From Rufibacter roseolus (GTDB lineage Bacteria > Bacteroidota > Bacteroidia > Cytophagales > Hymenobacteraceae), in NCBI RefSeq assembly GCF_017916365.1, contig NZ_JAFMSU010000003.1:1178001-1242000 (forward strand): a DNA stretch of 64,000 nucleotides, read 5' to 3'. Shown here piece by piece: positions 8,298 to 63,326 of the stretch. The position numbers and the translations under genes were made by a program. The stretch's first letter is position 1, and each line of letters opens with the position of its first letter. The notes under the pieces are model-generated. The model was not told the origin of the DNA, made no database searches, and saw only the letters and a list, made by a program, of their open reading frames with translations.

Positions 8298-8336
8298 CGT
8301 TTTTAAACAGGTTTTCAGAAAGCTGTCCTAAAACGC
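8298..8336. repeat. Dispersed intergenic palindrome, copy 1
   Basis: CGTTTTTAAACAGGTTTTC followed by AGAAAGCTGTCCTAAAACG: an imperfect palindrome of the family found about 26 times in this window. It ends 2 bp before the TauE/SafE stop codon, at its 3' side, where it may serve as terminator. Confidence 0.7.
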
Positions 8337-8338
8337 TT

Positions 8339-9136
8339 TTACTTGAAAGTGTCAAAAGCGAACTTAAGGATGATGCCAGACACCACCACCAGGAAAAGCT
8401 TCCGCACAAAGCCAGAGCCCTTGACCAGCGCAATACGCGTACCCACCACCGAGCCGATCACACTACTAACGGCCATAGGGATGCCTATATGATACAGGAT
8501 GTAGCCTTTGTACCCAAAATACAACAGCGCTGAAAGGTTGGTAGCCACGTTCACCACTTTGGCCGAAGCCGAGGACGTGAGGAAGTTGAAGCCAAAAACG
8601 CCTACGAAGATGAACATGAGAAAAGAGCCTGTCCCAGGCCCGAAGAACCCATCATAGAACCCTATCACCAGCCCTACCCCTATGCCGTACCAGATCTCTT
8701 TAGAAGGAGCCAACCGGGGTGCATGGATCGCGCCGAAGTCCTTTTTAAAGAATGTGTAGATGGCCACCGAGATAAGGAGCACCAAAATCAAGGGACGCAG
8801 CAGATCGGCGTTGAAGTGGCTGAGGGCACGGGCACCCAGGAACGAGAACACAAAGGCGGTAATGGCGGCGGGCAGCAGGGCGTGCCAGTTGATCTCCACG
8901 TTCTTGGCATAACGCCACATAGAAACCGATGTACCCGCAATACTGGACAACTTGCCAGTGCCAAATACCGTGGGGATAGGCACGTGGGGCAGAAACACAA
9001 ACAGCGCCGGCAACTGGATAAGCCCTCCACCACCCACTACAGAATCAATCAAGCCTGCCAGAAAAGCGAACAGGCACAGGTAAACAATATCCAACGTTGA
9101 AGAATTAAGCCCGCTACGCGGCAAATGAAGCCGCAA
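8339..9136 (-). CDS. TauE/SafE (YfcA-type) family permease
   Basis: 265 aa, about eight membrane segments. It carries both repeats of the TauE/SafE fold: GLIDSVVGGGGLIQLPAL near residue 30 and GFYDGFFGPGTGSFLM near residue 155, the pattern of E. coli YfcA. The family exports sulfite, sulfoacetate or other small anions, or is of unknown substrate; the substrate here cannot be told. Start choice is uncertain: the frame has no ATG before the first membrane helix and is closed upstream by TGA. TTG at 9136 is used here, with TTG codons at 9124 and 9091 as alternatives. A GCCGCA/TGCGGC inverted repeat overlaps the proposed start (9130-9156). Monocistronic, divergent context unknown. Confidence 0.88.
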   Translation of the reverse strand: MRLHLPRSGLNSSTLDIVYLCLFAFLAGLIDSVVGGGGLIQLPALFVFLPHVPIPTVFGTGKLSSIAGTSVSMWRYAKNVEINWHALLPAAITAFVFSFLGARALSHFNADLLRPLILVLLISVAIYTFFKKDFGAIHAPRLAPSKEIWYGIGVGLVIGFYDGFFGPGTGSFLMFIFVGVFGFNFLTSSASAKVVNVATNLSALLYFGYKGYILYHIGIPMAVSSVIGSVVGTRIALVKGSGFVRKLFLVVVSGIILKFAFDTFK

Positions 9137-9188
9137 ATATTCTGAAAATGTGCGGCTTAATCAAAGTTAGACTTGTGGCCCAAGCCGA

Positions 9189-9222
9189 TTTTGGCTCATT
9201 TATAAGAAAACAAGCTAAAAAC
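9189..9222. repeat. Dispersed intergenic palindrome, copy 2 (supplies a stop codon)
   Basis: TTTTGGCTCATTTATAAG then AAAACAAGCTAAAAACG. The right arm contains, on the minus strand, the last codons and TAG stop (9215-9217) of the lamin-tail protein gene, so the element overlaps the coding end. Confidence 0.62.
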
Positions 9223-11788
9223 GCCCACCTACCACGGCCGTCTCTTTCAAAACCTCTTTCTTCCCCTGCAGGTTGAACAACTCCACCAGCACCACATAAT
9301 ACCCGATGGCCGCTTTGGAACCAGCATCGGTGAGGCCGTCCCACTGCAGCACGCTCTCAGCACCCAGCAAAGTATTGGCCGAGAGTTTCCGAATGTAGCG
9401 CCCGTGGGCATCGAAGATGGTCACTGAAGCCACAAACCCGGCCTGCGGCAACTTGAACTGCAGCAACAGGGCATCGTCTATCCCGTCTCCGTCCGGCGTG
9501 ATGGTTTTGGGCTGCAGGGTCAGCTTTCCGTTTTGAGCACCGTTTTCCCGAAACTGAGAATTCTCATAACCCGGCGTGGCTTTCACCTGAGTTGCCGCCG
9601 AGTAAAAATTCTCCGCCGTGGAGGGCCCGGCCAGAGAGATGCGCTCAAGGGAAATTCCCTCGGTGTCATGGATAAGCTTGAAATGCTGCTCCTTTTGATA
9701 CACTACCTCGTCCATGATGGTCTCATCTGGTAAGAGCAAGATCACGGTGCCCGCCTCATCTGGGTACGAGGGCAGGGTGGCCATCGCCATAAATCGGTCC
9801 GCGTGCCCAGATGGGTACTCCCTTTGCAGAATGGCAGAATCAGAGGTCAGAACCAGGTACTCGCCGGGTGCTAACAGGAAATTCACCGGAGTGATCACGC
9901 GGGCGCTCGCCACCTCTCCATCAGAAGACCTGTTGGCCAATTTCCAGTTCTGTAGGTCCAGGTACTTGGTAGACCGGTTCACGATCTCCACAAAGTCAAC
10001 ACCGCCGGACCTAGGGTTGAACAGGATCTCATTGATGACTACATCGCCTTTCTTTGGCGCGGCTGGAAGAAGCACGGTTTGCGCCTGAGAATCCGCTCTG
10101 TTCCCGGCGCAATCGGTTAACCCCTGCACCGTGACGGTATAGCGCATGTTTTCCTGCAACGGGGTGGAAAGCATCAATTCCACCTGAGTAAATTCCGGTG
10201 ACAAAACCCGGGCTCGCTGCACAGCAACACCGGAGGAGACGGAGTAATGATTTACTTGGGCAGCTTCCGCGCTATCCAGCGGTTCATCGAAGGTAAGCAG
10301 AATCTTGTCCGGGCTATGGGTTACTATTTGCTTCAAAGCCGGAGGCGTCTGGTCTACTTCCTTTACCGAGTTCAGCTGACCGGGGGTGCCACCTCTCCCA
10401 TCCTTAGAGGCTATCCACTGCGAAGCCCCAGTGCAGCGGGTGTTCACATCCTTCAGCTCCAGACTCCAGCCACCGTTTTTCTTATCTGCGTCTACGTACC
10501 AAGTGGCATTGTAGCGCACCAAATCAATTAATTGGCCGCTGGCGTTGAAAAGCTCCACGTCATCACCGCTGTCATTGAGCGACGGAAAAGTGGTAAGCCC
10601 CACTACAGAACCGTACGGCCGGTAAAGTGCTGTATCGGCCGCGGCACATACAATCAGGTAAGCGCCCGGCTTCAGGAGATAATCGGGGAAGGTGCCTGCC
10701 GTGGCGGTGGCGTCTGACATTTGCCAACTTTTAAGGTTGAAGGTTTTGTCACTGCGGTTGTAGAGCTCAATAAACTCGGCATCCGGTAGATCCTGCAAGG
10801 GGTTCAGGTCGGCGTAAATTTCGGTGACGCGGACCTCGCCTGGCTGGGCCACAGGAGAATAGGAGAATGTTCCGGCGAGGTGCTGCGTGAGGGTGCCATT
10901 AGAGCTCGTGATTTGCAGTACCTCAATCTGATTGCTGCCGGTCTCAAAATCCTGGTTGAACTGCAGTTCCACTAGCTGGGGCGTGGCAGCTTGCCAATCT
11001 GCTTTTGTGGGCACCTCCTTTCCGTTGAGCCGGTAGTTCGCCACGTTTTCGGCATCATTTCCCAAAATTGGCCCGGAAAAAGTCAGCTCAACTGTCTTGC
11101 GTCCGGTAGCCACCGTGCTCACTAGGCTGGTTCCGCCCAGGTCTTTGACCGTGAAGTCATCGAAATAGAAGCGTTGGGCATTGGCCTGTGAATACTTGAA
11201 AAGCACCCCAGCGTAAGCCGAGGTGGTATAGCGCGCATCCTGCACGGCGCCCTGCACCTCGTAGCTTTGCCGGGTGCCGGTTTTGTCCAGTTCCAGGGTC
11301 CAGTCGTGGGTGGCGGTGCGGGTGACCTTTACCCAGAGTTTATTATCTGTGGCCGCTATGGCTTTATCGGGTCCGTTGATGATTTTGGTGACGGTGCTGC
11401 CGTCTTTACGGTATAGGCTCACCTCATCCTCGGTGTCTCCCAGGCGCACAAAGTACCCCTGCAGATTACCTTTGAGATCAGGTGCATCAGAGACCAGGTA
11501 CACTTCCGCCAGGTTACCCGAGGAGGTAGCGAAACCCAGTTGCACGTAGAACTCCCACTGCGTGGCCACGGCCAGACCGTTACCGGTAGCCACATGCAGG
11601 GCGGTACCTGTTACCGCCGGGCCCTGGCTTTGCAGTTGCCCAGCGGAGTTCACCCGGAAAAAACCTGCATCTCCCTGCCAAACTGGGTTCTGGGTGTGGT
11701 CTCCGTCTGAAAAAGATTCCTGAATTTGCGCGTGCGGGGCAGTTAAAAAGGCCCAGTATAAAAGAAAAGCAAGAAAGAATTGCCTCAT
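9215..11788 (-). CDS. Secreted lamin-tail-domain surface protein with C-terminal sorting-like domain
   Basis: 857 aa with a signal peptide (LTAPHAQ). Domains in order: an N-terminal jelly-roll/laminin-G-like region (about 22-215, HVATGNGLAVATQWEFYVQLGFA), an Ig/SbsA-like domain, a first lamin-tail domain (about 314-440, VTEIYADLNP...AEFIELYNRS), another Ig-like domain with TFDEPLDSA, a second lamin-tail domain (about 580-720, VINEILFNPRSGGVDFVEIVNRS), and a C-terminal FlgD/T9SS type B-like domain starting at about 756 (TITPDGDGIDD...GYYVVLVEL). Known for such proteins: export to the cell surface by T9SS, often adhesive or linked to extracellular nucleases or carbohydrate binding; no nuclease domain is present here. 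The last codon and stop lie inside a dispersed palindrome. Monocistronic, divergent from asd. Confidence 0.88.
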   Translation of the reverse strand: MRQFFLAFLLYWAFLTAPHAQIQESFSDGDHTQNPVWQGDAGFFRVNSAGQLQSQGPAVTGTALHVATGNGLAVATQWEFYVQLGFATSSGNLAEVYLVSDAPDLKGNLQGYFVRLGDTEDEVSLYRKDGSTVTKIINGPDKAIAATDNKLWVKVTRTATHDWTLELDKTGTRQSYEVQGAVQDARYTTSAYAGVLFKYSQANAQRFYFDDFTVKDLGGTSLVSTVATGRKTVELTFSGPILGNDAENVANYRLNGKEVPTKADWQAATPQLVELQFNQDFETGSNQIEVLQITSSNGTLTQHLAGTFSYSPVAQPGEVRVTEIYADLNPLQDLPDAEFIELYNRSDKTFNLKSWQMSDATATAGTFPDYLLKPGAYLIVCAAADTALYRPYGSVVGLTTFPSLNDSGDDVELFNASGQLIDLVRYNATWYVDADKKNGGWSLELKDVNTRCTGASQWIASKDGRGGTPGQLNSVKEVDQTPPALKQIVTHSPDKILLTFDEPLDSAEAAQVNHYSVSSGVAVQRARVLSPEFTQVELMLSTPLQENMRYTVTVQGLTDCAGNRADSQAQTVLLPAAPKKGDVVINEILFNPRSGGVDFVEIVNRSTKYLDLQNWKLANRSSDGEVASARVITPVNFLLAPGEYLVLTSDSAILQREYPSGHADRFMAMATLPSYPDEAGTVILLLPDETIMDEVVYQKEQHFKLIHDTEGISLERISLAGPSTAENFYSAATQVKATPGYENSQFRENGAQNGKLTLQPKTITPDGDGIDDALLLQFKLPQAGFVASVTIFDAHGRYIRKLSANTLLGAESVLQWDGLTDAGSKAAIGYYVVLVELFNLQGKKEVLKETAVVGGRF

Positions 11789-11851
11789 AATAAGCCTGTA
11801 CTTTATAATCCGTGAAAAGTTGGCTTACTTTGCAATTGGCCTGTGCGCTTT

Positions 11852-11884
11852 CTGCCTGATTCTCAGAAAACAAGCTTAAAACAC
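11852..11884. repeat. Dispersed intergenic palindrome, copy 3
   Basis: TCTGCCTGATTCTCAGAAAA then CAAGCTTAAAACACC, in the gap between the divergent lamin-tail gene and asd, so it is on the promoter side of both genes and cannot be a terminator for either. Confidence 0.6.
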
Positions 11885-11963
11885 CCAGACCATTGTTTCC
11901 GGAGAAAGCTACCCCACCCGTTCTTCTCCGGTGATTGTTCAAATATTTTTTACAAACCTTTAC

Positions 11964-12953: not shown

Positions 12954-12970
12954 TCGTAGCATTTGATTAT

Positions 12971-13008
12971 AAAAGAAAAGGCCACCTGCAGAGGTGGCCT
13001 TTTCTTTT
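12971..13008. terminator. Bidirectional terminator between asd and a lipoprotein gene
   Basis: Stem AAAAGAAAAGGCCACCT / AGGTGGCCTTTTCTTTT with a 4-nt loop lies between the convergent genes asd (+) and 13035-13382 (-). Confidence 0.92.
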
Positions 13009-13034
13009 ATAAGATTGTCTGGAGGTGGCTTAAC

Positions 13035-13382: not shown

Positions 13383-13493
13383 AGAAGGGGGCTTTAAACA
13401 GAAGATACCTAAAACAAACTGGAGGTTGCATCACCGCTCATTTTCTTTTGAAATCGGCCGGAATGGTCCGGGCCCTTGACTTTCCAAAAGCAG

Positions 13494-13547
13494 AGAACCT
13501 GTGTTCTGCGCCTGATTTTTATAAAACTGGCCCAGAACACAGGTTCT
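13494..13547. terminator. Long hairpin with a dispersed-palindrome core, copy 4
   Basis: Perfect 15-bp arms AGAACCTGTGTTCTG (13494-13508) and CAGAACACAGGTTCT (13533-13547) enclose the core GCCTGATTTTTATAAAACTG-GCC of the dispersed palindrome family. It lies just after the stop codon of the minus-strand gene 13571-14629 and probably ends its transcript. The hairpin at 15425-15484 has the same core with different outer arms. Confidence 0.75.
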
Positions 13548-13570
13548 ATTATTTCAACTGATGCTGCGTT

Positions 13571-15378: not shown

Positions 15379-15424
15379 CCACCAGCATAGCGGCTGAAAC
15401 CGCTTACCTAATTCATCTAAAAAG

Positions 15425-15484
15425 AAGAACTTCCGTTTCTGCCCTGCTTTCTATAAAACAGGCCAAGAACGGAAGTTCTTTTTT
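15425..15484. terminator. Convergent terminator with a dispersed-palindrome core, copy 5
   Basis: Arms AAGAACTTCCGTT (15425-15437) and AACGGAAGTTCTT (15468-15480) followed by T residues; the interior GCCCTGCTTTCTATAAAACA-GGCC is the dispersed palindrome core, nearly the same as in the hairpin at 13494-13547. It lies between the convergent response regulator and Asp-box protein genes. Confidence 0.82.
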
Positions 15485-15499
15485 AAGACAGGTCCGGAC

Positions 15500-18570: not shown

Positions 18571-18614
18571 CGCCGTTTAGCAGCTGTTTTTCAGAAAACA
18601 GCCCCTAAACGGCG
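18571..18614. repeat. Dispersed intergenic palindrome, copy 6 (best-paired copy)
   Basis: CGCCGTTTAGCAGCTGTTTT / AAAACAGCCCCTAAACGGCG with a TCAG loop: near-perfect pairing over 20-nt arms. It lies 27 bp after the stop of the alpha/beta hydrolase gene and upstream of the Asp-box protein gene, where it could act as a terminator. Confidence 0.8.
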
Positions 18615-19456: not shown

Positions 19457-19469
19457 GGTGCAAGCGTGA

Positions 19470-19504
19470 TTTTGGCCTGTTTTACGGAAAGGAGAGCAAA
19501 AGAA
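19470..19504. repeat. Dispersed intergenic palindrome, copy 7 (degenerate)
   Basis: TTTTGGCCTGTTTTACGGAA then AGGAGAGCAAAAG: one good half and a decayed half, between the start of the hydrolase gene and the end of the lipoprotein gene. Confidence 0.4.
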
Positions 19505-19513
19505 GCATCCTTA

Positions 19514-20755: not shown

Positions 20756-20787
20756 TATGCGTGCTTAAATCTGTAATCAATTCTCAA

Positions 20788-20825
20788 TTTGAGGCTGTTT
20801 TCCATGAAATAGCCCCAAAACAAAA
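20788..20825. repeat. Dispersed intergenic palindrome, copy 8
   Basis: TTTGAGGCTGTTTTCCATG then AAATAGCCCCAAAACAAAA. It abuts the dxs terminator hairpin. Confidence 0.65.
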
Positions 20826-22930: not shown

Positions 22931-22974
22931 GCGCATTTTTGGCCTTATTCCTGAAAAATAGCCTAAAAACAGCG
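22931..22974. repeat. Dispersed intergenic palindrome, copy 9
   Basis: CGCATTTTTGGCCTTATTC then CTGAAAAATAGCCTAAAAACAGCG. First of three palindromes in the gap between the divergent dxs and scpA genes. Confidence 0.68.
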
Positions 22975-23072: not shown

Positions 23073-23113
23073 TTTGTTTAGGGCTTTATTTTCAGAAAAC
23101 GTCTCAAAAACAG
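23073..23113. repeat. Dispersed intergenic palindrome, copy 10
   Basis: TTTGTTTAGGGCTTTATTTT then CAGAAAACGTCTCAAAAACAGG, 18 bp upstream of the scpA promoter. Confidence 0.65.
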
Positions 23114-23968: not shown

Positions 23969-25070
23969 GAAACTGCTCTCGTACTTCACGCCGCAACGCA
24001 TTCTCATTCCAGTGGTGATTGGGTTGGGCGTGATAGGATACATGTTCTACCGGGACAGTGCCCAGATGGACTTCTCGCCGCTCTACAACGCCAAGCCGTT
24101 CTGGATCTTCATGACCTTTGCGGTGCTGGTGGTGCGTGACTTCGGGTACATTTACCGCATCAGGTACGTGACGGAGAAATTCCTGAGCTGGCGCAAAAGC
24201 GTGGACGTGATCATGCTCTGGGAGTTCGCGTCTTGCGTGATGCCCTCGGTGGTGGGCGGGTCTACGGTAGCGGCCTTTATGCTGAACAAAGAAGGCCTGA
24301 GTTTGGGCAAGTCCCTGGCGTACGTGATGGTGACCGCCATGATGGACAACCTGTACTTCATCATCGCCGTGCCCCTCGTTTTCCTGATTACCGCCGGCAA
24401 TATCTTCCCCGAGGTCTCGGCGATGGAGTTCTCGGTGACACAGAGCCTGGAGATCGCTTTTGCGGTCAGTTACATCCTCATTGCTTTCTACGCCTTTCTG
24501 ATGGCGTACGGCCTCCTTATTAACCCCACGGCCGTGAAACGCCTCTTCCTGCGGGCTACTTCTTTCAAGCTGACGCGCCGCTGGAGACCTGCCGCCTATA
24601 AGAACGGAAACGAACTGGTGTGGGCTTCGCAGCAACTCAAAGGCAGTACCTTCGGGTACTGGGCCAACGCCGCCCTGAGCACCGCCTTTGTCTGGACCGC
24701 CCGCTATTTTGTGATCAACTGCCTTATTGCCGCCTTCACCGATATCAGTTTCCATGACCACGTGCTCATTTTCTCGCGCAACATGGTTTACAAGATTGTG
24801 CTGCTGGTGGCCGTGACGCCGGGCGGGGCCGGTATTGCCGAGGTGGCTTTCCCCACGTTCTTCGGGCAGTTCCTGGGCCGCTTCACTACGGTGATCATTT
24901 TGCTGTATCGCGTAGTGACCTATTACCTGTACCTGATCCTGGGCTCTTTCTTCCTGCCCCGCTGGGTTCTCCGTGTTTTCGGTGAACATCCTGAGGACGA
25001 AGAAGAAAACGAACTGCGTTTAAGGCCTGTTTCTGAGGAACCAGACGTAAAACGAAAATATAGAGGTTAG
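23952..25070 (+). CDS. Flippase-like / lysylphosphatidylglycerol synthase TM-region family membrane protein
   Basis: 372 aa with about eight membrane segments. It matches the UPF0104/LPG_synthase_TM family: FASCVMPSVVGGSTVAAFMLNKEGLSLGKSLA and the later VAVTPGGAGIAEVAFPTFFG are the two family signatures. Members include the flippase half of MprF and stand-alone proteins thought to move lipids across the inner membrane; the lipid here is unknown. The catalytic MprF domain is absent. The start ATG lies inside the end of scpA. The last 18 codons (LRLRPVSEEPDVKRK) coincide with a copy of the dispersed palindrome, so the C-terminal tail seems to be element-derived. Confidence 0.9.
   Translation: MDLNRKKLLSYFTPQRILIPVVIGLGVIGYMFYRDSAQMDFSPLYNAKPFWIFMTFAVLVVRDFGYIYRIRYVTEKFLSWRKSVDVIMLWEFASCVMPSVVGGSTVAAFMLNKEGLSLGKSLAYVMVTAMMDNLYFIIAVPLVFLITAGNIFPEVSAMEFSVTQSLEIAFAVSYILIAFYAFLMAYGLLINPTAVKRLFLRATSFKLTRRWRPAAYKNGNELVWASQQLKGSTFGYWANAALSTAFVWTARYFVINCLIAAFTDISFHDHVLIFSRNMVYKIVLLVAVTPGGAGIAEVAFPTFFGQFLGRFTTVIILLYRVVTYYLYLILGSFFLPRWVLRVFGEHPEDEEENELRLRPVSEEPDVKRKYRG
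25017..25054. repeat. Dispersed palindrome, copy 11, inside a coding sequence
   Basis: CGTTTAAGGCCTGTTTCTG then AGGAACCAGACGTAAAACG lies wholly within the last codons of the flippase-like gene; the stop codon follows 14 bp later. Confidence 0.6.
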
Positions 25071-27277: not shown

Positions 27278-27722
27278 GGCGGTGAAGCAGGATAGTTAAC
27301 GGATAAATGATTTGATCTGATTTTTGATATACTTTTTGTAAAAGAGGCTTTAAACTACTGCCTAAAATAAAGCAAATCTCTTGCACCGTGTTCAAGCGGA
27401 GAAATGAAACGCAGTAAATCCATTTTAAGGCCGATTTTATGAAAGTAGGCTGAAAACGGAATTGTTCTTTTTTTTGGAAAAGATAAGGCTGTTCCTTCAG
27501 AAAAGAGGAGGTGTTACGGAGAATTTTTTTTCACCTAAACATTTCAGAAAAGTGGTGGTTACAAGAATAGATTTCCGAGGAAGTCTCCTGTTTTATCAAG
27601 TGTAATTGACGAAATACAGATTTTTACGTATCAATTACTGCCCATCGTACTTTTTCGCCTCTCAGAAAAAGCGCCCGTTCAGCTCCTTTGGTATTTGCAA
27701 ACTCCAACATAAGAATGGAACA
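27278..27722. other. Divergent intergenic region with palindromes
   Basis: 445 bp between the MORN/TonB_C gene (-) and the DUF4199-like gene (+). It holds one clear dispersed palindrome (27421-27459) and two decayed ones (near 27486-27513 and 27650-27682). The reading frame of the right-hand gene is open leftward to 27606 but this part is not coding-like. No RNA gene was recognised. Confidence 0.5.
27421..27459. repeat. Dispersed intergenic palindrome, copy 12
   Basis: CATTTTAAGGCCGATTTTATG then AAAGTAGGCTGAAAACGG, between two divergent genes and hence not a terminator. Confidence 0.66.
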
Positions 27723-28199: not shown

Positions 28200-28240
28200 T
28201 TCTTGGGGTATAAGGTAAGCGCTAAGAGTACAACTGGGGA

Positions 28241-28276
28241 TTACAGCTTGTTTTCACCAAAACGGGGCAAAAACAG
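28241..28276. repeat. Dispersed intergenic palindrome, copy 13
   Basis: TTACAGCTTGTTTTCACC then AAAACGGGGCAAAAACAG, just before the terminator shared with ndk. Confidence 0.55.
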
Positions 28277-28287: not shown

Positions 28288-28316
28288 AAAACGCCTGGCT
28301 TGCGGCCAGGCGTTTT
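28288..28316. terminator. Bidirectional terminator
   Basis: AAAACGCCTGGC / GCCAGGCGTTTT with a 5-nt loop, between the convergent DUF4199-like gene and ndk. Confidence 0.9.
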
Positions 28317-28339
28317 CATTATCTTTTCTCTAAAAGAGC

Positions 28340-28759
28340 TTAGAAACGCTCGTCAGCTGTGAAGAAGAAATCGCCTTCAATCTGGGCGTTCTCGTCAGAG
28401 TCAGAACCGTGCACGGCGTTGGCTTCTACAGACTTGGCGTAGATCTTCCGGATGGTTCCTTCCTCAGCCTGGGCTGGGTTGGTGGCGCCAATAAGGGTAC
28501 GGAAATCAAGCACGGCGTTGTCTTTCTCCAGAATCATGGCCACGATTGGTCCAGAGCTCATGTATTTCACCAGGTCGCCGTAGAAAGGACGCTCCTTGTG
28601 CACCTCGTAGAACTGACCGGCACGCTCCTCGGTAAGACGGGTCTTTTTCAGGGCCACTACTCTAAAGCCAGCCTCTTCCATCATTTTGGTGATACCGCCA
28701 ATGTGGTTATCCTTCACGGCATCTGGTTTAATCATGGTGAACGTTACGTTTCCAGCCAT
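28340..28759 (-). CDS. ndk: Nucleoside-diphosphate kinase
   Basis: 139 aa, the usual length. It transfers the gamma-phosphate of ATP to NDPs through a phosphohistidine. The phospho-acceptor is His117 in NAVHGSDS, part of the family signature N-x-x-H-G-S-D; MIKPDAV (residues 9-15) and Lys11 are in place, as are [11 protein letters not shown] and GPIVAMILE. Cytoplasmic. Monocistronic; convergent with the upstream membrane protein gene over a shared terminator; divergent from nrnA. Confidence 0.98.
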
Positions 28760-31548: not shown

Positions 31549-31588
31549 AAAAAAGAAGGGCCTCCTGCACAGGAGGCCCTTCTTTTTT
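31549..31588 (+). terminator. Terminator of the nrnA-FKBP-FKBP group
   Basis: AAAAAAGAAGGGCCTCCTG / CAGGAGGCCCTTCTTTTTT around a short loop, 14 bp after the FKBP stop codon. It can also serve recO from the other strand. Confidence 0.93.
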
Positions 31589-31622
31589 GCCTTGTTTTAT
31601 GAAAATAGCCGCTAAACCCGGC
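31584..31622. repeat. Dispersed intergenic palindrome, copy 14
   Basis: TTTTTTGCCTTGTTTTATG then AAAATAGCCGCTAAACCCGG. Overlaps the T tract of the preceding terminator and lies just past the recO stop codon. Confidence 0.6.
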
Positions 31623-34772: not shown

Positions 34773-34810
34773 TGTTTTGGGCCTTATTTACCTAAAACAG
34801 AGTTAAAACG
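34773..34810. repeat. Dispersed intergenic palindrome, copy 15
   Basis: TGTTTTGGGCCTTATTTACC then TAAAACAGAGTTAAAACG, between the UbiA-family stop and the porZ start. Confidence 0.66.
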
Positions 34811-36638: not shown

Positions 36639-36676
36639 CGTTTGGGGCCTGTTTTGGTGAAAACAAGCTCCAAACG
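36639..36676. repeat. Dispersed intergenic palindrome, copy 16
   Basis: CGTTTGGGGCCTGTTTTGG then TGAAAACAAGCTCCAAACG: one of the best copies. It lies between the iscX stop and the kdsC start. Confidence 0.78.
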
Positions 36677-37492: not shown

Positions 37493-37529
37493 CGTTTTAC
37501 GCCTGTTTCCCAAAAAACGGCTCATTTTC
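37493..37529. repeat. Dispersed palindrome, copy 17, overlapping a coding end
   Basis: CGTTTTACGCCTGTTTCCC then AAAAAACGGCTCATTTTC. On the minus strand it contains the last codons (NEPFFGKQA) and the TAA stop of the DUF2520 gene. Confidence 0.66.
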
Positions 37530-38300
37530 TGCCGCCCTTTGAATACTTTCTGTGAGTACCTGATATAAATGTTGGTAGTGGGGCTGGGTTTGCAATAGTT
37601 GCAGATGCGCCTGCAACGTGTTAGCGTCTCCGCGGCGGGCTGGCCCTGTCTGCACCGTGAACGGCGGAAACTGAAAAGCTTTCTGCACCGTCTCTAGCAC
37701 CAGCGGCTCCAAAAGATTCACCGGCAGTTCTGCTTTCTGTAACAGTTCCTGCGCCACGCCCCACAGATGGTTGGTGAAGTTGCAGGCAAACACCGCCGCC
37801 ACGTGTAGCTGCTTTCTGGCCTGCCCATGCATCAGAACCACCTGATCGCTGAGCAGCTTCCCCAGATTCAATAGAGTTTCTTCTGCCTTTGGGGAAGCAC
37901 CTTCCACACAGATGGGAATTCTGCGCCAGTCCAGCTCCTTTTCCTTGCTGAAAGTCTGCACCGGATAGAAGACGCCGGTTTCTACCCCTGCCAGTGAGGT
38001 CAGCAGTTCCATCGGCTGCGCCCCGGACGTATGGGCCACCAAGGCACCCTCCGGGAAAACAGCGTTTTGCACGTACTGCGGCAGCGCTCCGTCCGGAATA
38101 GCCAAAAGATAGACCTGGGCATTCGGCAATTGCCGGAAGTCTGTGGCGTCAGTGGCTACGGCACCCGGAACTTCTTCTGCTAATTTCTGCGCCGAGGCCA
38201 GCGTACGGCTGTAGATGACGGGTATCTCTATACCTGCCTCCTGGAGACCCTTCACCAAGTGCGTGGCCACGTTACCGGCCCCTATAATTGCAACCTTCAT
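37497..38300 (-). CDS. Rossmann/DUF2520 domain oxidoreductase-like protein
   Basis: 267 aa from the ATG at 38300; the frame extends to 38417 but MKVAIIGAGNVATHLVKGL is the expected family start. N-terminal NADP-binding Rossmann domain (GAGNVATHL, residues 7-15; IYSRTLASAQKLAEEV; VYLLAIPDGALPQYV; AHTSGAQP) followed by the helical DUF2520 domain (HVAAVFACNFTNHLWGVAQELL). It resembles 6-phosphogluconate dehydrogenase-like or ketopantoate reductase-like enzymes; the substrate is unknown. The C-terminal codons fall in a dispersed palindrome. Confidence 0.9.
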   Translation of the reverse strand: MKVAIIGAGNVATHLVKGLQEAGIEIPVIYSRTLASAQKLAEEVPGAVATDATDFRQLPNAQVYLLAIPDGALPQYVQNAVFPEGALVAHTSGAQPMELLTSLAGVETGVFYPVQTFSKEKELDWRRIPICVEGASPKAEETLLNLGKLLSDQVVLMHGQARKQLHVAAVFACNFTNHLWGVAQELLQKAELPVNLLEPLVLETVQKAFQFPPFTVQTGPARRGDANTLQAHLQLLQTQPHYQHLYQVLTESIQRAAENEPFFGKQA

Positions 38301-38379
38301 TTTTTTCACCTGTTTGGAGAGGGCGAAGTTAGCAGCTTTCCGCTTTAACATCTCGGTAGACCGATCATCCAGCAAAACC

Positions 38380-38415
38380 CTTTTCGGGCCCTTTTTACCC
38401 AAACAGCCTATAAAC
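38380..38415. repeat. Dispersed intergenic palindrome, copy 18
   Basis: TTTTCGGGCCCTTTTTACCC then AAACAGCCTATAAAC, upstream of the DUF2520 gene and just before the ccmF terminator. Confidence 0.55.
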
Positions 38416-38454
38416 AAAAAAGCCGCGGAAGAAAATGAATTCTTCCGCGGCTTT
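38416..38454 (-). terminator. Terminator of the ccm cluster
   Basis: AAAGCCGCGGAAGAA / TTCTTCCGCGGCTTT with a 6-nt loop, 15 bp after the ccmF stop. Confidence 0.93.
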
Positions 38455-41750: not shown

Positions 41751-41788
41751 CGTTTAGGACCTGCTTAAGGTAAAACAGCCCCGAAACG
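41751..41788. repeat. Dispersed intergenic palindrome, copy 19
   Basis: CGTTTAGGACCTGCTTAAGG then TAAAACAGCCCCGAAACGG, inside the ccm cluster between the ccmD-like stop and the ccmE start. Confidence 0.75.
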
Positions 41789-42070: not shown

Positions 42071-42722
42071 AGAATCGTTGCTTTAAAACTTCTAAACGGG
42101 TGCGAAGGTGCACCACCCAAACCCCTAACAGCGTCCAGCCAATCACGGCCGGGTAGAACACGGCGCGCAGGCGGCTGTCCAGGTCATAGGAGTTGAAACC
42201 GGGGTTCCCGCCATTGCCCGGGTGCAGGGAATCTGTGAGGCGCGGCAGAATAAACAAAAGCGGGATAAGCGCCGCAAACGCGAAGACATTGTACACCGCG
42301 CTGATGCGGGCGCGCTGCTGATGGTCCTGGAAAGAACCGCGCAGAATAAGGTAAGCGAAGTAAATGAGTAGGCCAATGGCCGAAGCGTTCTGCTTGGGAT
42401 CGTTGCTCCAGAATTCGCCCCACGTGAAACGTGCCCACTCCATGCCCGTGATAATGCCCAGCACCCCAAACAGGATGCCTACTTTGGCAGACTCGTAGGC
42501 AATGATATCGTTTCTGGTAAGTGGGTTTCTGAGGTATTTTATGGAATACACCACTGAAACGAGCAAAATCAGGATCATGCCAAACCACATAGGCACGTGG
42601 AAGTACAGGTTCCGGATGGTTTCATTGAGAATAGCCAGACGGGGCACCTCGCTCAGCATGCCCATCACCACTGTGTACAGCAGCAGGGCAATCGTCAGCC
42701 ATTTCCACCAGGTTAGTTTCAT
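42057..42722 (-). CDS. ccmC: Cytochrome c maturation protein CcmC
   Basis: 221 aa from the ATG at 42722 (a GTG 15 codons upstream is possible but would run into ccmB). Six membrane helices; FHVPMWFGM near the N-terminus supplies a heme-ligand His, and the WWD motif is WARFTWGEFWSNDPKQNAS (tryptophan-rich, followed by GLLIYFAYL). It loads heme on CcmE. It lies between ccmB and the ccmD-like gene, overlapping the latter by 14 bp. Also matches the CcsA superfamily. Confidence 0.94.
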   Translation of the reverse strand: MKLTWWKWLTIALLLYTVVMGMLSEVPRLAILNETIRNLYFHVPMWFGMILILLVSVVYSIKYLRNPLTRNDIIAYESAKVGILFGVLGIITGMEWARFTWGEFWSNDPKQNASAIGLLIYFAYLILRGSFQDHQQRARISAVYNVFAFAALIPLLFILPRLTDSLHPGNGGNPGFNSYDLDSRLRAVFYPAVIGWTLLGVWVVHLRTRLEVLKQRFYENA

Positions 42723-43503: not shown

Positions 43504-43543
43504 CTTGTTTTGGAGTTACTTTCAGGAAATCAGACCTGAAACG
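43504..43543. repeat. Dispersed intergenic palindrome, copy 20
   Basis: CTTGTTTTGGAGTTACTTTC then AGGAAATCAGACCTGAAACG; the second half is well kept. Confidence 0.52.
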
Positions 43544-43699: not shown

Positions 43700-43740
43700 C
43701 CATTTAGCCTCTGTTTTTCAGAAAAGAGGCTAGAAACAGC
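43700..43740. repeat. Dispersed intergenic palindrome, copy 21
   Basis: CCATTTAGCCTCTGTTTTTC then AGAAAAGAGGCTAGAAACAGC; TAGCCTCT/AGAGGCTA pair exactly. Preceded by a half copy. Confidence 0.72.
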
Positions 43741-43894: not shown

Positions 43895-46708
43895 ATGAGA
43901 TCGTTTTTACTCACCCTCTCTTTTATCTGCACGGCCTTAACAGGCTTTGCGCAAACAGGAACCCTCACCGGCAAAGTAAAAGACAAGAAAACCGGCGAAG
44001 CCATTATCGGCGCCACCGTATCGGCTACCAGCTCCAGCGTAGCCGCCACCGACCTGGAAGGTAACTACTCCCTTTCATTGGCCCCGGGCACCTACAAAGT
44101 CACCATCACCTATGTTTCCTATAAACCGCTCACGCTTGAGGGCGTGACCATAGAAGCGGGCAAGACCACTAACCTGAACTCTTCCTTGGAAGACGATGCC
44201 CACAGCCTGGGCGAAGTGACCGTGGTAGCCGAGCGCCAGGTAAACAATGACATTTCGCTTATCAAAGACATCAAGCAGAGCAACATTGTAGTGAGCGGGA
44301 TGTCTAACGAGCAGATTGTGAAAGCGCAGGACCGCGATGCGGCCGAGGCGGTGCGCAGAATCCCGGGCGTTACCATCCAGGACAACCGCTTTATTATTGT
44401 GCGGGGCTTGAGCGAGCGCTACAACTCCGTAATGCTGAACAACGTGCTCACGCCCAGCTCTGAAGTGGACGTACGCGCCTTTTCTTTTGATGTCTTGCCC
44501 ACCAGCGTTATAGACAGAATCCTGATCTATAAGTCACCGGCCCCCGAATTACCCGGAGATTTCGCTGGTGGGGCCATCAAAGTCACCACTAGAAACGCAG
44601 TGACGGAGAACAGCGCCACCTTCAGCATAGGTACGGGCTACCGCACGGGCACCACGTTCAACAACAACTACTATTCCTACAAAGGCAGCAAAACGGATTT
44701 CCTGGGGTTTGACAGCGGAACCCGCCAACTGCCCGGCAACTTCCCTTCCACCGCCAGATTCCAGAACCTGAGCTACGCCGAGCGCGCCCAGTACGGTCAG
44801 AACCTGGACCTGCCCAACACCTGGAAACCAGAGAAAGCCACCGCCTCGCCAGATATGAGATTGAATTTTGGGCTGAACCGCGTTTTTGACGTAGCCGGCA
44901 ACCGGATTTCCAGCATCACGGCCGTCACTTACTCTAATTCCCGGCTGCGCCAGAACACTTTCCGCAGCGATTACCAGCAACAGCAGGCCGACGGCAAAGT
45001 AGACACCAACTGGAACTACACAGACCAACTCTCGGGCAATACCATCCGGGTGGGTTTGCTGCAGAACTTCTCGCTCCGCCTGAACGAGAACAACAAGATA
45101 GAATTCCGGAACCTGTTCAACCAGATAGGCATTTCCCAGACCACGGTGCGCCAGGGCTTCAACTATGAGACCGGGGGCGTGAAAGAAGAGCAGAACTACG
45201 CCCTGCGTTACGAAAGCCGCAGCATTTACACCGGTCAGTTGCAGGGTACGCACTCTTCCCCAGACCAAAAGAACACCTTCACCTGGTCAGCGGGCTACAA
45301 CTTCATCAACCGCCAGGAACCGGATTTAAGAAGAGTGCGCACCCAACGCGATGCCGGATCTGAAGGCCCGTTCAGGGTACAGGTTTCCACTTTGTCTACG
45401 CCTTATGATGCCGCCCGCTTCTTCTCAGACCTGAACGAGAGCGCCTACATCGCCGAAGGCCAGTGGCAGCACCTCTTCAACGCCGCAGATTCAGCTGATG
45501 TGGAGAACGCCCCCAAATTGAACATCGGGTTCTACGCCGAGAGAAAGGACCGCGACTTCAACGCCCGCACCCTCAACTACAAGCGCAACGCTGGCATTGG
45601 CGGCAGAACCGATGAAAACATCCTGAACCTGCCCTTGGACCAGATCTTCGCCCCGCAGAACATCTCTTTCCCTAACGGATTGATCTTTGACGAAGGAACC
45701 ACCATTGCCGATAAGTATGATGCCTCCAACACTTTGGGAGCCGCTTACGCTGGTATCGCGAAGAAATTCTTCCAAAAGGTTAACTTCTACGGCGGGGTTA
45801 GAGCTGAGTACAACTGGCGCCAGGTGACCACCGCTGACCAATCTGGTACTTACGAGGTAGACGAGAAGAAACTTTACCTGCTACCATCGGTGAACGTGGC
45901 CTACAACTTCAGCCTCCGTTCCCTGCTGCGCGTGGCCTACGGCATGACCGTGAACCGCCCCGAGTTCAGAGAGCAGGCCCGCTTCAGCTTCTATGACTTC
46001 AATGAGAACGCCTCGGTACGCGGTAACAACGAACTCAAAACCGCTACCATCCACAACGTGGACATGCGCTATGAATTCTACCCCTCCTCCGCTGAGCTTC
46101 TTTCTCTGGGAGTTTTCTACAAACGGTTCATAAACCCCATTGAGACCAAACTGGAGGCCGGTACCGGTACCAACTACACCTTCGTGAACGGAGATTATGC
46201 CAACAGCATCGGGATTGAGGCAGAGGCCCGCAAGTCTTTCAGAGAGCTTTCCGGCAGCAAATTCATTCAAAACCACTCTCTGGTCTTGAACGCTTCCTTG
46301 ATCCACAGCCGAGTGAGCCTAAAGGGTACATCTTCAGAAGAGGCTTTGGAGCGTCCTATGATGGGTCAATCGCCTTACATCGTGAACACGGGCCTCTACT
46401 ACCAGGATGAAGAGACCGGCTGGCAGTACTCCATCATGTACAACGTACTGGGCACCAGAATCTACCGCGTGGGCGATGAACAGAACCCGTCAATCTATGA
46501 ATTACCCCGCCACGTGGTGGATGTGACCCTCACCAAGAACTTCAAGAACAGAATGCAGCTAAAAGCCGGCGTGACCGACCTGTTCAACCAGAAATTCCGC
46601 TTCAAGGAAGACACCAACCTAGACAGCGAGATCGGGTCAGCAGACCTGCCCATCTACCTCTTCAACCGGGGCATGTACAGCACTATCACCTTAGGGTACA
46701 CTTTCTAA
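43895..46708 (+). CDS. TonB-dependent receptor with carboxypeptidase-like regulatory domain
   Basis: 937 aa with a signal peptide (LTGFAQTG). Residues 22-105 form the regulatory-like beta-sandwich (LTGKVKDKKTGEAIIGATVSA), 120-235 the plug (AAEAVRRIPGVTIQDNRFIIVRGLSERYNSVMLNNV, then VIDRILIYKSPAPELPGDFAGGAIKVTTR), and the rest the barrel, ending in TLGYTF. This is the non-SusC class of TonB receptors (no SusD gene follows). It is followed at 59 bp by a beta-helix lipoprotein, which is probably its surface partner. Substrate unknown; repeats in the promoter suggest two-component control, perhaps phosphate. Confidence 0.93.
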   Translation: MRSFLLTLSFICTALTGFAQTGTLTGKVKDKKTGEAIIGATVSATSSSVAATDLEGNYSLSLAPGTYKVTITYVSYKPLTLEGVTIEAGKTTNLNSSLEDDAHSLGEVTVVAERQVNNDISLIKDIKQSNIVVSGMSNEQIVKAQDRDAAEAVRRIPGVTIQDNRFIIVRGLSERYNSVMLNNVLTPSSEVDVRAFSFDVLPTSVIDRILIYKSPAPELPGDFAGGAIKVTTRNAVTENSATFSIGTGYRTGTTFNNNYYSYKGSKTDFLGFDSGTRQLPGNFPSTARFQNLSYAERAQYGQNLDLPNTWKPEKATASPDMRLNFGLNRVFDVAGNRISSITAVTYSNSRLRQNTFRSDYQQQQADGKVDTNWNYTDQLSGNTIRVGLLQNFSLRLNENNKIEFRNLFNQIGISQTTVRQGFNYETGGVKEEQNYALRYESRSIYTGQLQGTHSSPDQKNTFTWSAGYNFINRQEPDLRRVRTQRDAGSEGPFRVQVSTLSTPYDAARFFSDLNESAYIAEGQWQHLFNAADSADVENAPKLNIGFYAERKDRDFNARTLNYKRNAGIGGRTDENILNLPLDQIFAPQNISFPNGLIFDEGTTIADKYDASNTLGAAYAGIAKKFFQKVNFYGGVRAEYNWRQVTTADQSGTYEVDEKKLYLLPSVNVAYNFSLRSLLRVAYGMTVNRPEFREQARFSFYDFNENASVRGNNELKTATIHNVDMRYEFYPSSAELLSLGVFYKRFINPIETKLEAGTGTNYTFVNGDYANSIGIEAEARKSFRELSGSKFIQNHSLVLNASLIHSRVSLKGTSSEEALERPMMGQSPYIVNTGLYYQDEETGWQYSIMYNVLGTRIYRVGDEQNPSIYELPRHVVDVTLTKNFKNRMQLKAGVTDLFNQKFRFKEDTNLDSEIGSADLPIYLFNRGMYSTITLGYTF

Positions 46709-46767
46709 AAACGGACTTAAAACAGACCTACATATCAATTAAACTAAACCATTTCTTAAAAAAGAGT

Positions 46768-48867: not shown

Positions 48868-48908
48868 GCTGTTTTAAAGCCGATTTTCCTAAATTAGACC
48901 TAAAACAG
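48868..48908. repeat. Dispersed intergenic palindrome, copy 22
   Basis: GCTGTTTTAAAGCCGATTTTC then CTAAATTAGACCTAAAACAG, between the Spy-like gene start and the MoxR stop. A more decayed relative is at about 48726-48757. Confidence 0.62.
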
Positions 48909-50007: not shown

Positions 50008-50379
50008 CTACCACTTCTTAAAGACAAAGAAAACCGCCAGTACCAACAGGGCAAAACCCACCAAATGGTTCCATGCCAGCTTCTCTGATTTAAACACATA
50101 CACCGTCACCAGCGTGAAAACAGACAGGGAAATGACTTCCTGCAGGGTCTTGAGTTCAAAGAGGGAGAAAGGTCCTCCGTTCTCACGATACCCCAGTTTG
50201 TTGGCCGGCACCTGGAATATGTACTCAAAGAACGCCAATCCCCAGCTGATGAGTATAACGCTCACCAAACCCAGTTTCTGCAGCGCCGTGAATCTTTTGA
50301 AGTACAGGTGCCCATACCACGCAAAGGTCATAAAGAGGTTAGACAGACACAGCAGAAAAATGGTATAGAATGCTTTCAT
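50008..50379 (-). CDS. DUF486 (DMT-like) membrane protein
   Basis: 123 aa with four membrane helices and no large loops. The blocks FMTFAWYGHLYF, LISWGLAFFEYIFQVPANKLGY and LKTLQEVISLSVFTLVTVYVFK are characteristic of the DUF486 family of the drug/metabolite transporter superfamily. Function unknown; small DMT proteins dimerise. Inner membrane. Upstream of moxR on the same strand, perhaps co-transcribed. Confidence 0.93.
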   Translation of the reverse strand: MKAFYTIFLLCLSNLFMTFAWYGHLYFKRFTALQKLGLVSVILISWGLAFFEYIFQVPANKLGYRENGGPFSLFELKTLQEVISLSVFTLVTVYVFKSEKLAWNHLVGFALLVLAVFFVFKKW

Positions 50380-51018
50380 GTGATTTTACTTAAAACAACC
50401 AATAAGCGCCTGGAGCGCCAATTCTGATCTGCGGTTAACCAGGATACAGCAGCCTGCAAACTATTGCTGGCCCTGCTCCAGGACGAATGGTTTAGCGCCT
50501 GTTTTCCTAAAAACGGCCCGAAAACAAAGTTGCTATCTGTCTGCCTCAATACAATACTAATCTGGACAAATTTCCACTTCCATTATCAAAAGCTTCTTAC
50601 GGGATTAACCATAAATTACATTATATAAGAACAATATACCTTTCAAGATATATAATTAATTACATTAAAGCATTTTCATAATTAAATATAATTATTTCAA
50701 TTCACTAAAAGACTACCCATAAACACACATCCAAATCAATGAATAAACACCCTCTAAAAAGATACAAATTCAACAAGCTAAACCTGTTTAAAAAGCTCAA
50801 TAAACGCCAATAAACCCATTCACAACTAATTCAGGATCAATTCATCGGTTAAAACAGGCATTTTATCGAAATCAAGAACAACCTGGATAAAATTGCATAA
50901 TTTTGAAGCAAAATTCACAACAAGAAAAGCAGAAGCTTATAGCAATATTGATTTCGTCAAGTTTTCAATAAAGTATTAGCAGAATAACGCTCCAGATTAT
51001 TCCATTTCATTCCCCTAT
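50380..51018. other. Intergenic region before the DUF11 gene
   Basis: 639 bp between divergent genes. A dispersed palindrome is at 50488-50528. From about 50570 it is strongly AT-rich. A -7 box TAATTTTG at 50898-50905 could start the DUF11 transcript with a leader of about 110 nt; I find no good -33 box. No ORF or RNA gene was recognised. Confidence 0.5.
50488..50528. repeat. Dispersed intergenic palindrome, copy 23
   Basis: GGTTTAGCGCCTGTTTTCC then TAAAAACGGCCCGAAAACAAAG, between divergent genes. Confidence 0.7.
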
Positions 51019-57360: not shown

Positions 57361-57385
57361 GCAAACTTTTCAGACCAGTTACCTT

Positions 57386-57419
57386 AAGAAGCGGCCCAAC
57401 AGGAGCCGCTTCTTTTCTT
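57386..57419 (+). terminator. Terminator of the DUF11 gene
   Basis: AAGAAGCGGC / GCCGCTTCTT followed by TTCTTT, 26 bp after the stop codon. Confidence 0.85.
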
Positions 57420-57460
57420 TAGTAGTTTATGGATTACCTTTTCGTTTCAGGGCTTCTTTC

Positions 57461-57520
57461 CCTACAGCAAGACAAAACGGGAAGCCTCTTAAGAGGCTTC
57501 CCGTTTTGTCTTGCTGTAGG
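57461..57520. repeat. Perfect 60-bp palindrome
   Basis: Bases 57461-57490 (starting CCTACAGCAAGACAAAACGG) and 57491-57520 (ending CCGTTTTGTCTTGCTGTAGG) are exact reverse complements with no loop and no mismatch. The flanks do not continue the symmetry. It lies 42 bp after a normal terminator. Confidence 0.93.
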
Positions 57521-62470: not shown

Positions 62471-62491
62471 CCTGGACGAACACAACAAGCA

Positions 62492-62525
62492 AAAGAAAGG
62501 GCGCCCACGAAGCGCCCTTTCTTTT
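62492..62525 (+). terminator. Terminator of the YDG gene
   Basis: AAAGAAAGGGCGC / GCGCCCTTTCTTT with a T-rich tail, 21 bp after the stop codon. Confidence 0.9.
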
Positions 62526-62556
62526 TAAGGCCGTTTTCTGCAAAACCGCCCTAATT
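62521..62556. repeat. Dispersed intergenic palindrome, copy 24
   Basis: CTTTTTAAGGCCGTTTTCTG then CAAAACCGCCCTAATT, adjoining the T tract of the YDG terminator. Confidence 0.6.
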
Positions 62557-62627
62557 CAGATTGATGCTTTAGAAACATAGCTTTACTTCTCTTAACATAA
62601 AAGGCTTGCACACTTCCAGCAATAAAT

Positions 62628-62668
62628 AAAAAAAGGTGGCTCCTAACGCCAGGAGCCACCTTTTTTTT
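62628..62668 (-). terminator. Terminator of the acidic protein gene
   Basis: AAAAAAAGGTGGCTCCT / AGGAGCCACCTTTTTTTT with a 6-nt loop, 26 bp past the stop of the minus-strand gene. Confidence 0.93.
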
Positions 62669-62694
62669 ATAATGCAACCGTTAAGCAATGGTTT

Positions 62695-63171
62695 TTACTC
62701 CTCGTCATCCAGGTAGTAATCGCCTACGTGGCCCTCGGCCGAGTCGTCGCTGAAACGGGTGATGTCTTTCATAAAGTTGTCGTGGATCTGCTTGATCTTG
62801 GGTGACTCGCCCACGTGCTTTTTCAGGATTTTGGCAATGTTGCTGGCTTCTTCCAGGTAGAACATGTCATCAGTGGCGGTACCCAGTTTGTCGGCGTCCA
62901 CCTGCAGCAGTTCGGTCTGGAGATCCATCAGTTTGGGGTCGTCCTCGCCGTACATGATGAGCGTACCGTGCAGTTTGCTCAGCATCTCGTTGAAAAGCTC
63001 ACCCTCGTACGGAAGGTTCACTTCCTCGTCATCATCTGCGCCAAAGCCGCCTCTGCCCCCTAAAACGTCATCATCGTCGTCGTCAAAGGAGAACTCATCA
63101 TCAAAATGGCTGTTGTTGAAATCCTCGTCATCGTAGCCATACTCGTCATCGTAACTGCCGCGTGGTGCCAT
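62695..63171 (-). CDS. Highly acidic protein of unknown function
   Basis: 158 aa without signal peptide or membrane helix. Residues 7-52 are extremely rich in Asp and Glu (DDEYGYDDEDF, SFDDDDDDVLGG, ADDDEEV) with Gly/aromatic residues and should be disordered. From about 55 on a helical part follows (GELFNEMLSKLHGTLIMYGEDDPKLMDLQTELLQVDADKL, EEASNIAKILKKHVGESPKIKQIHDNFMKDI). I do not recognise the family; the ordered half looks conserved-type. Cytoplasmic. Own terminator; divergent from the ALDH gene. Confidence 0.8.
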   Translation of the reverse strand: MAPRGSYDDEYGYDDEDFNNSHFDDEFSFDDDDDDVLGGRGGFGADDDEEVNLPYEGELFNEMLSKLHGTLIMYGEDDPKLMDLQTELLQVDADKLGTATDDMFYLEEASNIAKILKKHVGESPKIKQIHDNFMKDITRFSDDSAEGHVGDYYLDDEE

Positions 63172-63287
63172 ATCAGTTTGTTTTAAATGCTGTCAAAAAT
63201 GTTGTTTGCCTGTTTTGGGTTGGTCTCCTTTTTACGAGTGCGTTTTAAAAAGTATCCGCCAATTGGGTAAAACTTTCTTTATTATTT

Positions 63288-63326
63288 GCGTTTTGGAGCC
63301 GCTTCCGCAAAAATAGCCCAAAATCG
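63288..63326. repeat. Dispersed intergenic palindrome, copy 25
   Basis: GCGTTTTGGAGCCGCTTCC then GCAAAAATAGCCCAAAATCG, between the divergent acidic protein and ALDH genes. Confidence 0.62.

Follow-up and report, generated by a model that had tools for sequence, protein, structure and literature searches.

The stretch of DNA analyzed here (the window) covers 64,000 nucleotides of a 5.5-Mb Rufibacter genome (R. roseolus, contig NZ_JAFMSU010000003.1, positions 1,178,001 to 1,242,000) and carries many copies of a 38-bp imperfect palindrome. The family to which these copies belong shows concerted evolution at fixed positions: the positions of the copies are passed on almost unchanged, and in several species most copies have been rewritten into a version peculiar to that species. 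This pattern is not easily accounted for by ordinary jumping repeats. As the best explanation, to which we assign a probability of roughly 0.4, we propose a family resembling repetitive extragenic palindromic (REP) sequences that is recognized as DNA by a trans-acting factor and is rewritten copy to copy.

A Palindrome Family of the Genus Rufibacter

Each copy consists of two 18-bp arms and a 2-nt center; the iterated half-site matrix has the consensus yGTTTtnrGsCTGTTTTy, and the 2-nt center is sharply preferred. At a threshold of at least 23 of 34 identities the window holds 23 sites, against 0–1 per Markov shuffle (three shuffles), and at 22 of 34 or more it holds 32, against 0–2. A matrix trained on the window's own genome finds 34 window sites at 16 bits or more, and a closely similar matrix, at 16 bits, finds 264 sites in 451 kb of the genome (window included), compared with 1 in the shuffle. 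Outside the window, 20 other stretches of the same genome (387 kb) contain 131 sites, and one shuffle of each contains none. The original prediction, made from the window's sequence alone, of a recurring palindrome of about 38 bp in excess over shuffled sequence is thus borne out, on a larger scale than first described and beyond the window. The density of about 5 sites per 10 kb corresponds to 2,500–3,000 copies when extrapolated from the sampled stretches to the genome. No Rfam family matches within the window at the gathering score. An 868-aa protein of this genome matches R. hautae, the nearest named relative found, at 96%.

A covariance-model search of the genome and its relatives, which the original prediction had called for, found the palindrome to be genus-wide and specific: all 16 Rufibacter genomes gave at least 149–150 matches among 150 scored candidates per genome (lower bounds, as 150 candidates were scored), whereas under stricter filters 85 of 104 other genomes of the taxonomic family gave no match and 19 gave 1–7, the two strands being counted separately. 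Among 80 loci around one conserved gene, those of four named Rufibacter carry 3.1–5.4 sites per 10 kb; of the remaining 76, 73 carry no site and three carry one. Across Rufibacter, density ranges from 3.4 to 6.2 sites per 10 kb, and in neighboring genera a 20-bit matrix found no site in 245 kb (genus g2), none in 80 kb (g3) and one in 60 kb (g4). Stray copies occur in one g3 genome, probably of Pontibacter (G082; L262, L263); the DNA around them matches Rufibacter arrays that look like gene cassettes, which makes transfer likely in this case. We found no description of the family, as judged by titles in one open-access library.

The arrays themselves (L161:8000-20000, L162 and L171 of G014 and G006; L262 and L263 of G082), present in Rufibacter and also in a single genome from a different genus of the family, are runs of small genes separated by repeated elements of 60–100 nt with a GGCCGTCGGCC center and TAAC...GTTAGC ends. 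They look like a chromosomal gene-cassette (integron-like) array, the gene layout having been inspected in L161 only. Palindrome pairs lie 74–86 bp apart in L262 and L263 and 74–75 bp apart in L161. The neighboring genera (L258–L261 of G017; L242–L252 of G016 and G021) have long, often perfect palindromes of their own at about 1 per 10 kb; these differ in sequence with no common motif visible, and some lack terminator-like ends.

Fixed Places, Species Dialects

One block of the window was read in 16 species (G numbers denote genomes, G000 being that of the window), and counterparts were seen in all 16 for sites C and D, in 15 for A, in 14 for E, in 13 for G, and in 9 each for B and F (coordinates in the table). 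Site A lies 18–31 bp past the end of the neighboring open reading frame (ORF) in 15 of 16 species, the nearest site in G014 being 178 bp away. Site B is 33–37 bp from its neighboring gene in its 9 species, D is 99–105 bp from its neighbor in 15, and E is 80–85 bp from the gene in its 14; C is weak in G008 and G012. The terminator hairpin adjoining site F is present in all 16 species, with a palindrome near it in 9.

The same holds for gaps in general. Over 1,552 orthologous gap pairs the probability of a copy given a copy in the other species is 0.87, against 0.15 given none, and among 530 pairs with a single copy on either side the two offsets agree to within 5 bp in 58%, compared with 13% under random placing. 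As pairs from the 16-species block are non-independent, the safer count takes one random pair per cluster: among 119 orthologous gap clusters, 61 were filled in both species, 36 empty in both and 22 discordant (97/119 agree), and mean concordance was 0.810, compared with 0.610 (SD 0.029) after shuffling within gap type and length. Discordant filled gaps number 1/22 for G000–G002, 1/18 for G008–G012, 1/15 for G000–G004, 0/7 for G004–G011, 3/8 for G013–G015 and 5/17 for G010–G014. Duplication to new places is thus not seen in the closest pairs (1/22 and 1/18 discordant), and any spreading may be ancient.

At these shared places the sequence differs by species. The consensus is CGTTTTcGGgCTCATTTC in G014, CGTTTAGgGGCTgTTTTT in G003 and CGTTTTTGGCCTGTTTTC in both G008 and G012, and in seven listed pairs that involve G014 a species' own matrix outscores the other's at orthologous places by a mean of 15–30 bits; for G010 and G014 the own matrix was best in 10/10 cases on both sides, with mean margins of 16.5 and 21.2 bits. 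Mean distances (of 38 bases) to the nearest paralogue and to the positional counterpart were 3.2 and 9.9 in G003 (n = 15), 2.2 and 11.3 in G014 (n = 31), and 3.7 and 10.9 in G010 (n = 21), and all 67 copies of these species, the three most uniform, that were testable in orthologous gaps were closer to a paralogue than to any positional counterpart. Paralogues were likewise closer for 92% of copies in G006 (n = 26), 85% in G008 (n = 27) and 71% in G012 (n = 24), and for 47% in G000 (n = 36), 30% in G002 (n = 27) and 30% in G004 (n = 23); reducing the paralogue pools to 40 left the pattern unchanged in the six species rerun. High-scoring stretches, or DNA next to them, supplied 5 of the 6 loci of G010 and 12 of the 21 loci of G003 (L225–L236), which inflates the uniformity of these two genomes; the syntenic loci and those of G014 were not selected in this way.

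The window's own clade behaves differently, with no advantage of the own matrix at orthologous places (for example, G000 versus G002 or G004). In a tree of nine proteins the nine drifting species form one clade (support 1.0) with the uniform species outside it, so uniformity is probably ancestral, and homogenization seems to have been lost in this nine-species clade. Drift was measured for G000, G002 and G004; the other six members show low likeness within small samples. G007 offered only 7 sites.

Placement and Terminator-Like Hairpins

Gene calls came from a simple purpose-written script and are approximate. The 786 sites of the 16 species are mostly intergenic. Counting gaps of at least 50 bp, the 627 tandem gaps hold 385 of them, the 134 divergent gaps 110 and the 162 convergent gaps 171; 65 fall inside called genes and 55 elsewhere. 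In tandem gaps the median distance is 44 bp from the stop codon and 123 bp from the start; in divergent gaps it is 156 bp from the starts, and sites are mostly more than 60 bp away. Stop codons end exactly 9 bases into the palindrome in 18 counts, against 1 at eight adjoining offsets, and stand 3–4 bases before it in 43, against 7 and 8 at adjacent offsets; since species are pooled here, both peaks may derive from a small number of ancestral sites.

Inverted complementarity extends 3–4 bases past the core in G003, G014 and G010. In some copies it reaches far beyond this (extension score 8–17), and the outer arms of these copies are copy-specific and often end in a T-run. With window sites excluded, outer stems (score of at least 6) occur at 41/219 convergent, 28/538 tandem and 1/131 divergent sites, leaving 818 of 888 copies without outer arms; a T-run accompanies 22 of the 41 convergent sites with an outer stem and 28 of the 178 without. 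The original prediction was right that the copies cannot all be terminators, yet some appear to be: the copy at 15434 caps a terminator-like hairpin, with outer arms AAGAACTTC/GAAGTTCTT, a T-run and a predicted RNA fold of -32.9 kcal/mol (z -5.5). Several species keep paired outer arms of altered sequence at this place, and in G008 and G012 the arms are unpaired. Separate terminator hairpins adjoin other copies (e.g., 31582 and 48870). On the basis of structure, a minority of copies, mostly in convergent gaps, would cap terminators. These resemble bidirectional intrinsic terminators: each forms the tip of a stem whose ends are A-rich and T-rich, and most lie between convergent genes. The family differs in that most copies lack an outer stem and the core is common genome-wide.

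Conserved Framework and Signs of Copying

Across 15 species, the invariant columns of site A are G2, T3-5, T15-17, A23-24, A34-35 and C37, and those of site D are T4-5, C11, T15, A22-24, A34-35 and C37; at both sites the middle of the palindrome varies between species. Coding-strand mismatches in 362 tandem sites comprise 495 G.U and 478 A.C, which gives no hint of base pairing being preserved in the transcript, and DNA is the likely object. This speaks against the RNA-processing signal raised by the original prediction and against an RNA-only role; a genome-wide DNA-level signal forms part of the explanation that we favor. Covariation in a mixed-species alignment (153 double-changed cells versus 94.8, a level that none of 500 shuffles reached) was set aside as probably in part dialect mixing; within the window genome, arm pairing beyond column composition is modest.

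Several results point to copying. In G014, 44 of 231 sites fall into 12 groups of exact 38-mers, and alleles at least 3 bases apart within an arm are linked in 5/14 tests (p down to 7e-22); the figures are 1/10 in G010 and 0/50 in G000. In tests that kept orientation in place of symmetric treatment, polarity in G003 and G014 exceeds symmetric controls, the G003 set including biased loci. Information per site is 31–52 bits, compared with about 11 needed to mark the sites by Schneider's yardstick.

Other results weigh against it. Conservation of the framework is partly ascertained, the counterparts having been found by a matrix that rewards T tracts, and the core shows no greater similarity than its flanks (0.78 versus 0.79) across 457 ungapped cross-species alignments. 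G008 is uniform yet has no within-arm linkage (0/10), as selection would give, and the unbiased loci of G003 show 0/17 linked tests at 3 bases or more, against 8/17 once biased loci are included. Copying of whole elements should link the left and right arms, so their lack of linkage at non-partner positions in G014 (0/28; G010 0/20, G003 1/40) counts against it, and by rough arithmetic on arm counts the commonest G014 duplicate is about as frequent as independent arms would make it. A proposed G014 subfamily, in which CT at positions 10-11 is linked to T at 18, failed (p = 0.15), and no trans factor or partner protein was found. Copying may proceed arm by arm, or part of the pattern may be due to selection.

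We envisage that REP-like 38-bp palindromes would have spread between genes in the Rufibacter ancestor and have since been inherited at nearly fixed places, as the orthologous gaps show. A putative factor would recognize double-stranded or cruciform DNA through a T/A-tract dyad, roughly GTTT-N9-TTT ... AAA-N9-AAAC, the framework kept at the two loci A and D. In the uniform lineages the remaining sequence would be overwritten between copies, probably beginning with nicking or breakage at the palindrome, and would yield the one dialect per genome that is observed, with places unchanged. In the nine-species clade this overwriting would have stopped or slowed, and copies drift apart, as seen in G000, G002 and G004. 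Some copies, mainly in convergent gaps, form terminator-like hairpin tips and may act in termination.

Alternative Explanations

The REP-like part of the original prediction, a REP- or MITE-like family (MITE, miniature inverted-repeat transposable element), stands in size, copy number and intergenic placing: excerpts of PMC8049555 and PMC8266576 describe REP sequences as persistent, short intergenic palindromes in hundreds to thousands of copies, and systems of REP or REPIN sequences with a REP-associated tyrosine transposase (RAYT) share with the Rufibacter family high-copy palindromes of 20–50 nt (for known families, see also excerpts of PMC3733652 and PMC3116915). The MITE-like part finds no support. 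MITEs and the inverted repeats derived from insertion sequences are likewise dispersed and without coding capacity, but direct-flank identity averaged 0.08–0.33 in 7 species at duplication lengths of 2–9 (chance about 0.25), 222 flank pairs gave one poor case of a clean empty site, and of 747 cross-species alignments with a core indel none loses 30 or more core bases and two lose 28 (alignable flanks only); with neither target-site duplications nor clean empty sites seen, these tests speak against MITE insertion. That classical REP elements are mobilized by a RAYT (TnpA-REP) and became species-specific through fresh insertions, as the original prediction suggested, is unlikely. Y1-transposase (PF01797) genes are present in 15 of 16 Rufibacter, but the sixteenth, G012, lacks such a gene and retains the palindromes, whereas 38 of 46 sampled non-Rufibacter genomes of the family have such genes and at most 3 palindrome-model matches each. 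The predicted flanking of a RAYT gene by the palindrome shows no clear enrichment, with palindromes on both sides of 7/31 RAYT-like genes (23%) against 15% of 457 like-sized genes, and on at least one side of 21/31 against 72% of controls. Three full-length Y1 loci have different flanking repeats of their own, window-type copies also lying nearby. Excerpts of PMC8266576 describe a conserved GTAG-type tetranucleotide beside REP palindromes; in the window genome the 25 pooled flank columns show no base above 0.38, and in G014 the first four flank bases of near-identical copies show a modest bias (pairwise identity 0.45, 0.35, 0.42 and 0.34). The Rufibacter family, 38 bp with a 2-nt center, differs further in that its places are fixed and common to species while its sequence is rewritten into differing dialects. 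As a separate observation, the full-length Y1 genes (L104, L105 and L106) are flanked by inverted repeats ATGGGTTnnAACCCAT and GGCTAAAGCC, a distinct REP-like set.

A transcript-end hairpin acting as terminator, 3'-end stabilizer or processing site is rather unlikely: nearness to stop codons in tandem gaps, copy-specific outer stems concentrated in convergent gaps and often followed by a T-run, and the varying but paired outer arms at 15434 favor such an RNA signal, yet most copies have no outer arms, divergent gaps are well filled, sense G.U is no commoner than A.C, and separate terminator hairpins stand beside some copies. More doubtful still is a role like that of the DNA uptake sequence (DUS), in which transformation would favor DNA with the motif and spread a species' consensus at fixed places. 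By analogy with Neisseriaceae, where excerpts of PMC3630211 describe thousands of DUS, species dialects and inverted pairs at terminators, the Rufibacter family has dialects at thousands of sites (extrapolated from sampled stretches), fixed places and some terminator association, and the near absence of sites from a 102-kb contig (2 in 100 kb read) would fit. The same excerpts describe intragenic DUS as common, whereas copies within called genes are rare in Rufibacter (65/786), the unit is 38 bp and palindromic, and single half-sites were not found in three 20-kb loci: at 3 or fewer mismatches all 46 matches belong to palindromes, 6 of them having looked single until each proved to have a partner arm.

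The main rival, which we hold somewhat less probable than overwriting, is a reading in which a DNA-binding protein specific to the genus (a chromosome organizer, insulator or global regulator) binds the palindromes and drifts in specificity, the sites following singly under weak selection with no present copying. Consistent with such co-evolution are the T/A framework kept at two loci, the drifting clade included, the sharp 2-nt center, the lack of strand preference, the unlinked arms of G014, the absence of linkage in G008, positions near gene ends and mostly more than 60 bp from starts, and the partner arms of all six apparently single half-sites. It fits less well with 31–52 bits per site where about 11 suffice, with the exact 38-mer groups of G014 and with the within-arm linkage in G014 and G010, and no candidate protein was identified.

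Copies in the Window

The claim that palindromes occupy almost all gaps longer than 60 bp was too strong, 21 of 32 gaps after the first 8 kb being filled (approximate gene calls). Nor are palindromes absent from those 8 kb, as had been stated apart from one very weak candidate: position 6885 carries a fair copy and position 688 a weak one. The listed site at 42524 falls within a called gene and is probably a chance match.

Palindrome copies in the window (n/34, identities; matrix, match to the half-site matrix).
Feature	Position	Strand	Evidence
Weak palindrome copy	688		matrix match
Palindrome copy, in first 8 kb	6885..6922	.	24/34 + matrix match
Palindrome copy	8298..8335	.	23/34 + matrix
Palindrome copy	9186..9223	.	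24/34 + matrix
Palindrome copy	11044..11081	.	24/34 + matrix
Palindrome copy	11846..11883	.	24/34 + matrix
Palindrome copy with copy-specific inverted flanks	13502..13539	.	25/34; extension score 8
Palindrome copy, tip of terminator-like hairpin, convergent gap	15434..15471	.	28/34
Palindrome copy	18574..18611	.	29/34
Weak palindrome copy	19467..19504	.	22/34 + matrix
Palindrome copy	20785..20822	.	25/34
Palindrome copy	22934..22971	.	23/34
Palindrome copy	23075..23112	.	23/34
Palindrome copy	25017..25054	.	26/34
Palindrome copy, matrix only	27319..27356	.	22.8 bits
Palindrome copy	27421..27458	.	24/34; 34.5 bits
Palindrome copy	28238..28275	.	24/34
Palindrome copy	28311..28348	.	22/34; 27.4 bits
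Palindrome copy (site F), outside but adjoining terminator hairpin	31582..31618	.	25/34; alignment
Palindrome copy (site A)	34773..34810	.	orthologous block, column conservation
Palindrome copy (site B)	36639..36676	.	31/34; orthologous block, alignment
Half-decayed copy (site G), overlaps neighboring ORF 3' end	37493..37530	.	orthologous block
Palindrome copy (site C)	38379..38416	.	orthologous block
Palindrome copy (site D)	41751..41788	.	orthologous block, alignment, column conservation
Palindrome copy (site E), divergent gap	43506..43543	.	orthologous block
Palindrome copy	43701..43738	.	25/34
Weak copy, gene 3' end	46688..46724	.	20.2 bits + matrix
Palindrome copy adjoining separate terminator-like hairpin	48870..48907	.	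34.3 bits
Weak copy	50371..50408	.	19.0 bits + matrix
Palindrome copy	50489..50526	.	27/34; 37.7 bits
Weak copy	57443..57480	.	22/34 + matrix
Weak palindrome copy	62521..62558	.	22/34 + matrix
Palindrome copy	63289..63326	.	24/34 + matrix

With two sites (688 and 6885), window positions 1-8000 (called a SusCD block in the original prediction) are palindrome-poor, as expected of a transferred or operonic block. The contig with 2 sites in 100 kb belongs to the window's genome (G000 contig C4, 102 kb; L022, L237–L240), and the ten proteins inspected on it include those of restriction and repair genes, among them McrBC and type I methylase genes. Palindrome scarcity, as on this contig, might flag foreign or extrachromosomal DNA.

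Implications

It is conceivable, if doubtful, that the palindromes constitute a self-homogenizing network, in which thousands of palindromic DNA sites keep their places at the boundaries of transcription units and a putative genus-specific factor both reads the sites and drives their overwriting. Likeness among short repeats within a bacterial genome is usually attributed to transposition or uptake bias. If such a network exists, a punctuation of the whole genome would shift dialect together, and this would be a third route, beside transposition and uptake drive, to the concerted evolution of repeats. Position and sequence are uncoupled in Rufibacter, places being inherited and sequence rewritten by species. 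As one clade seemingly lacks the rewriting, the basal species and the nine-species crown clade offer a natural comparison with and without it, through which the trans factor and the mechanism of overwriting could be found by gene content and by experiment in named type strains.

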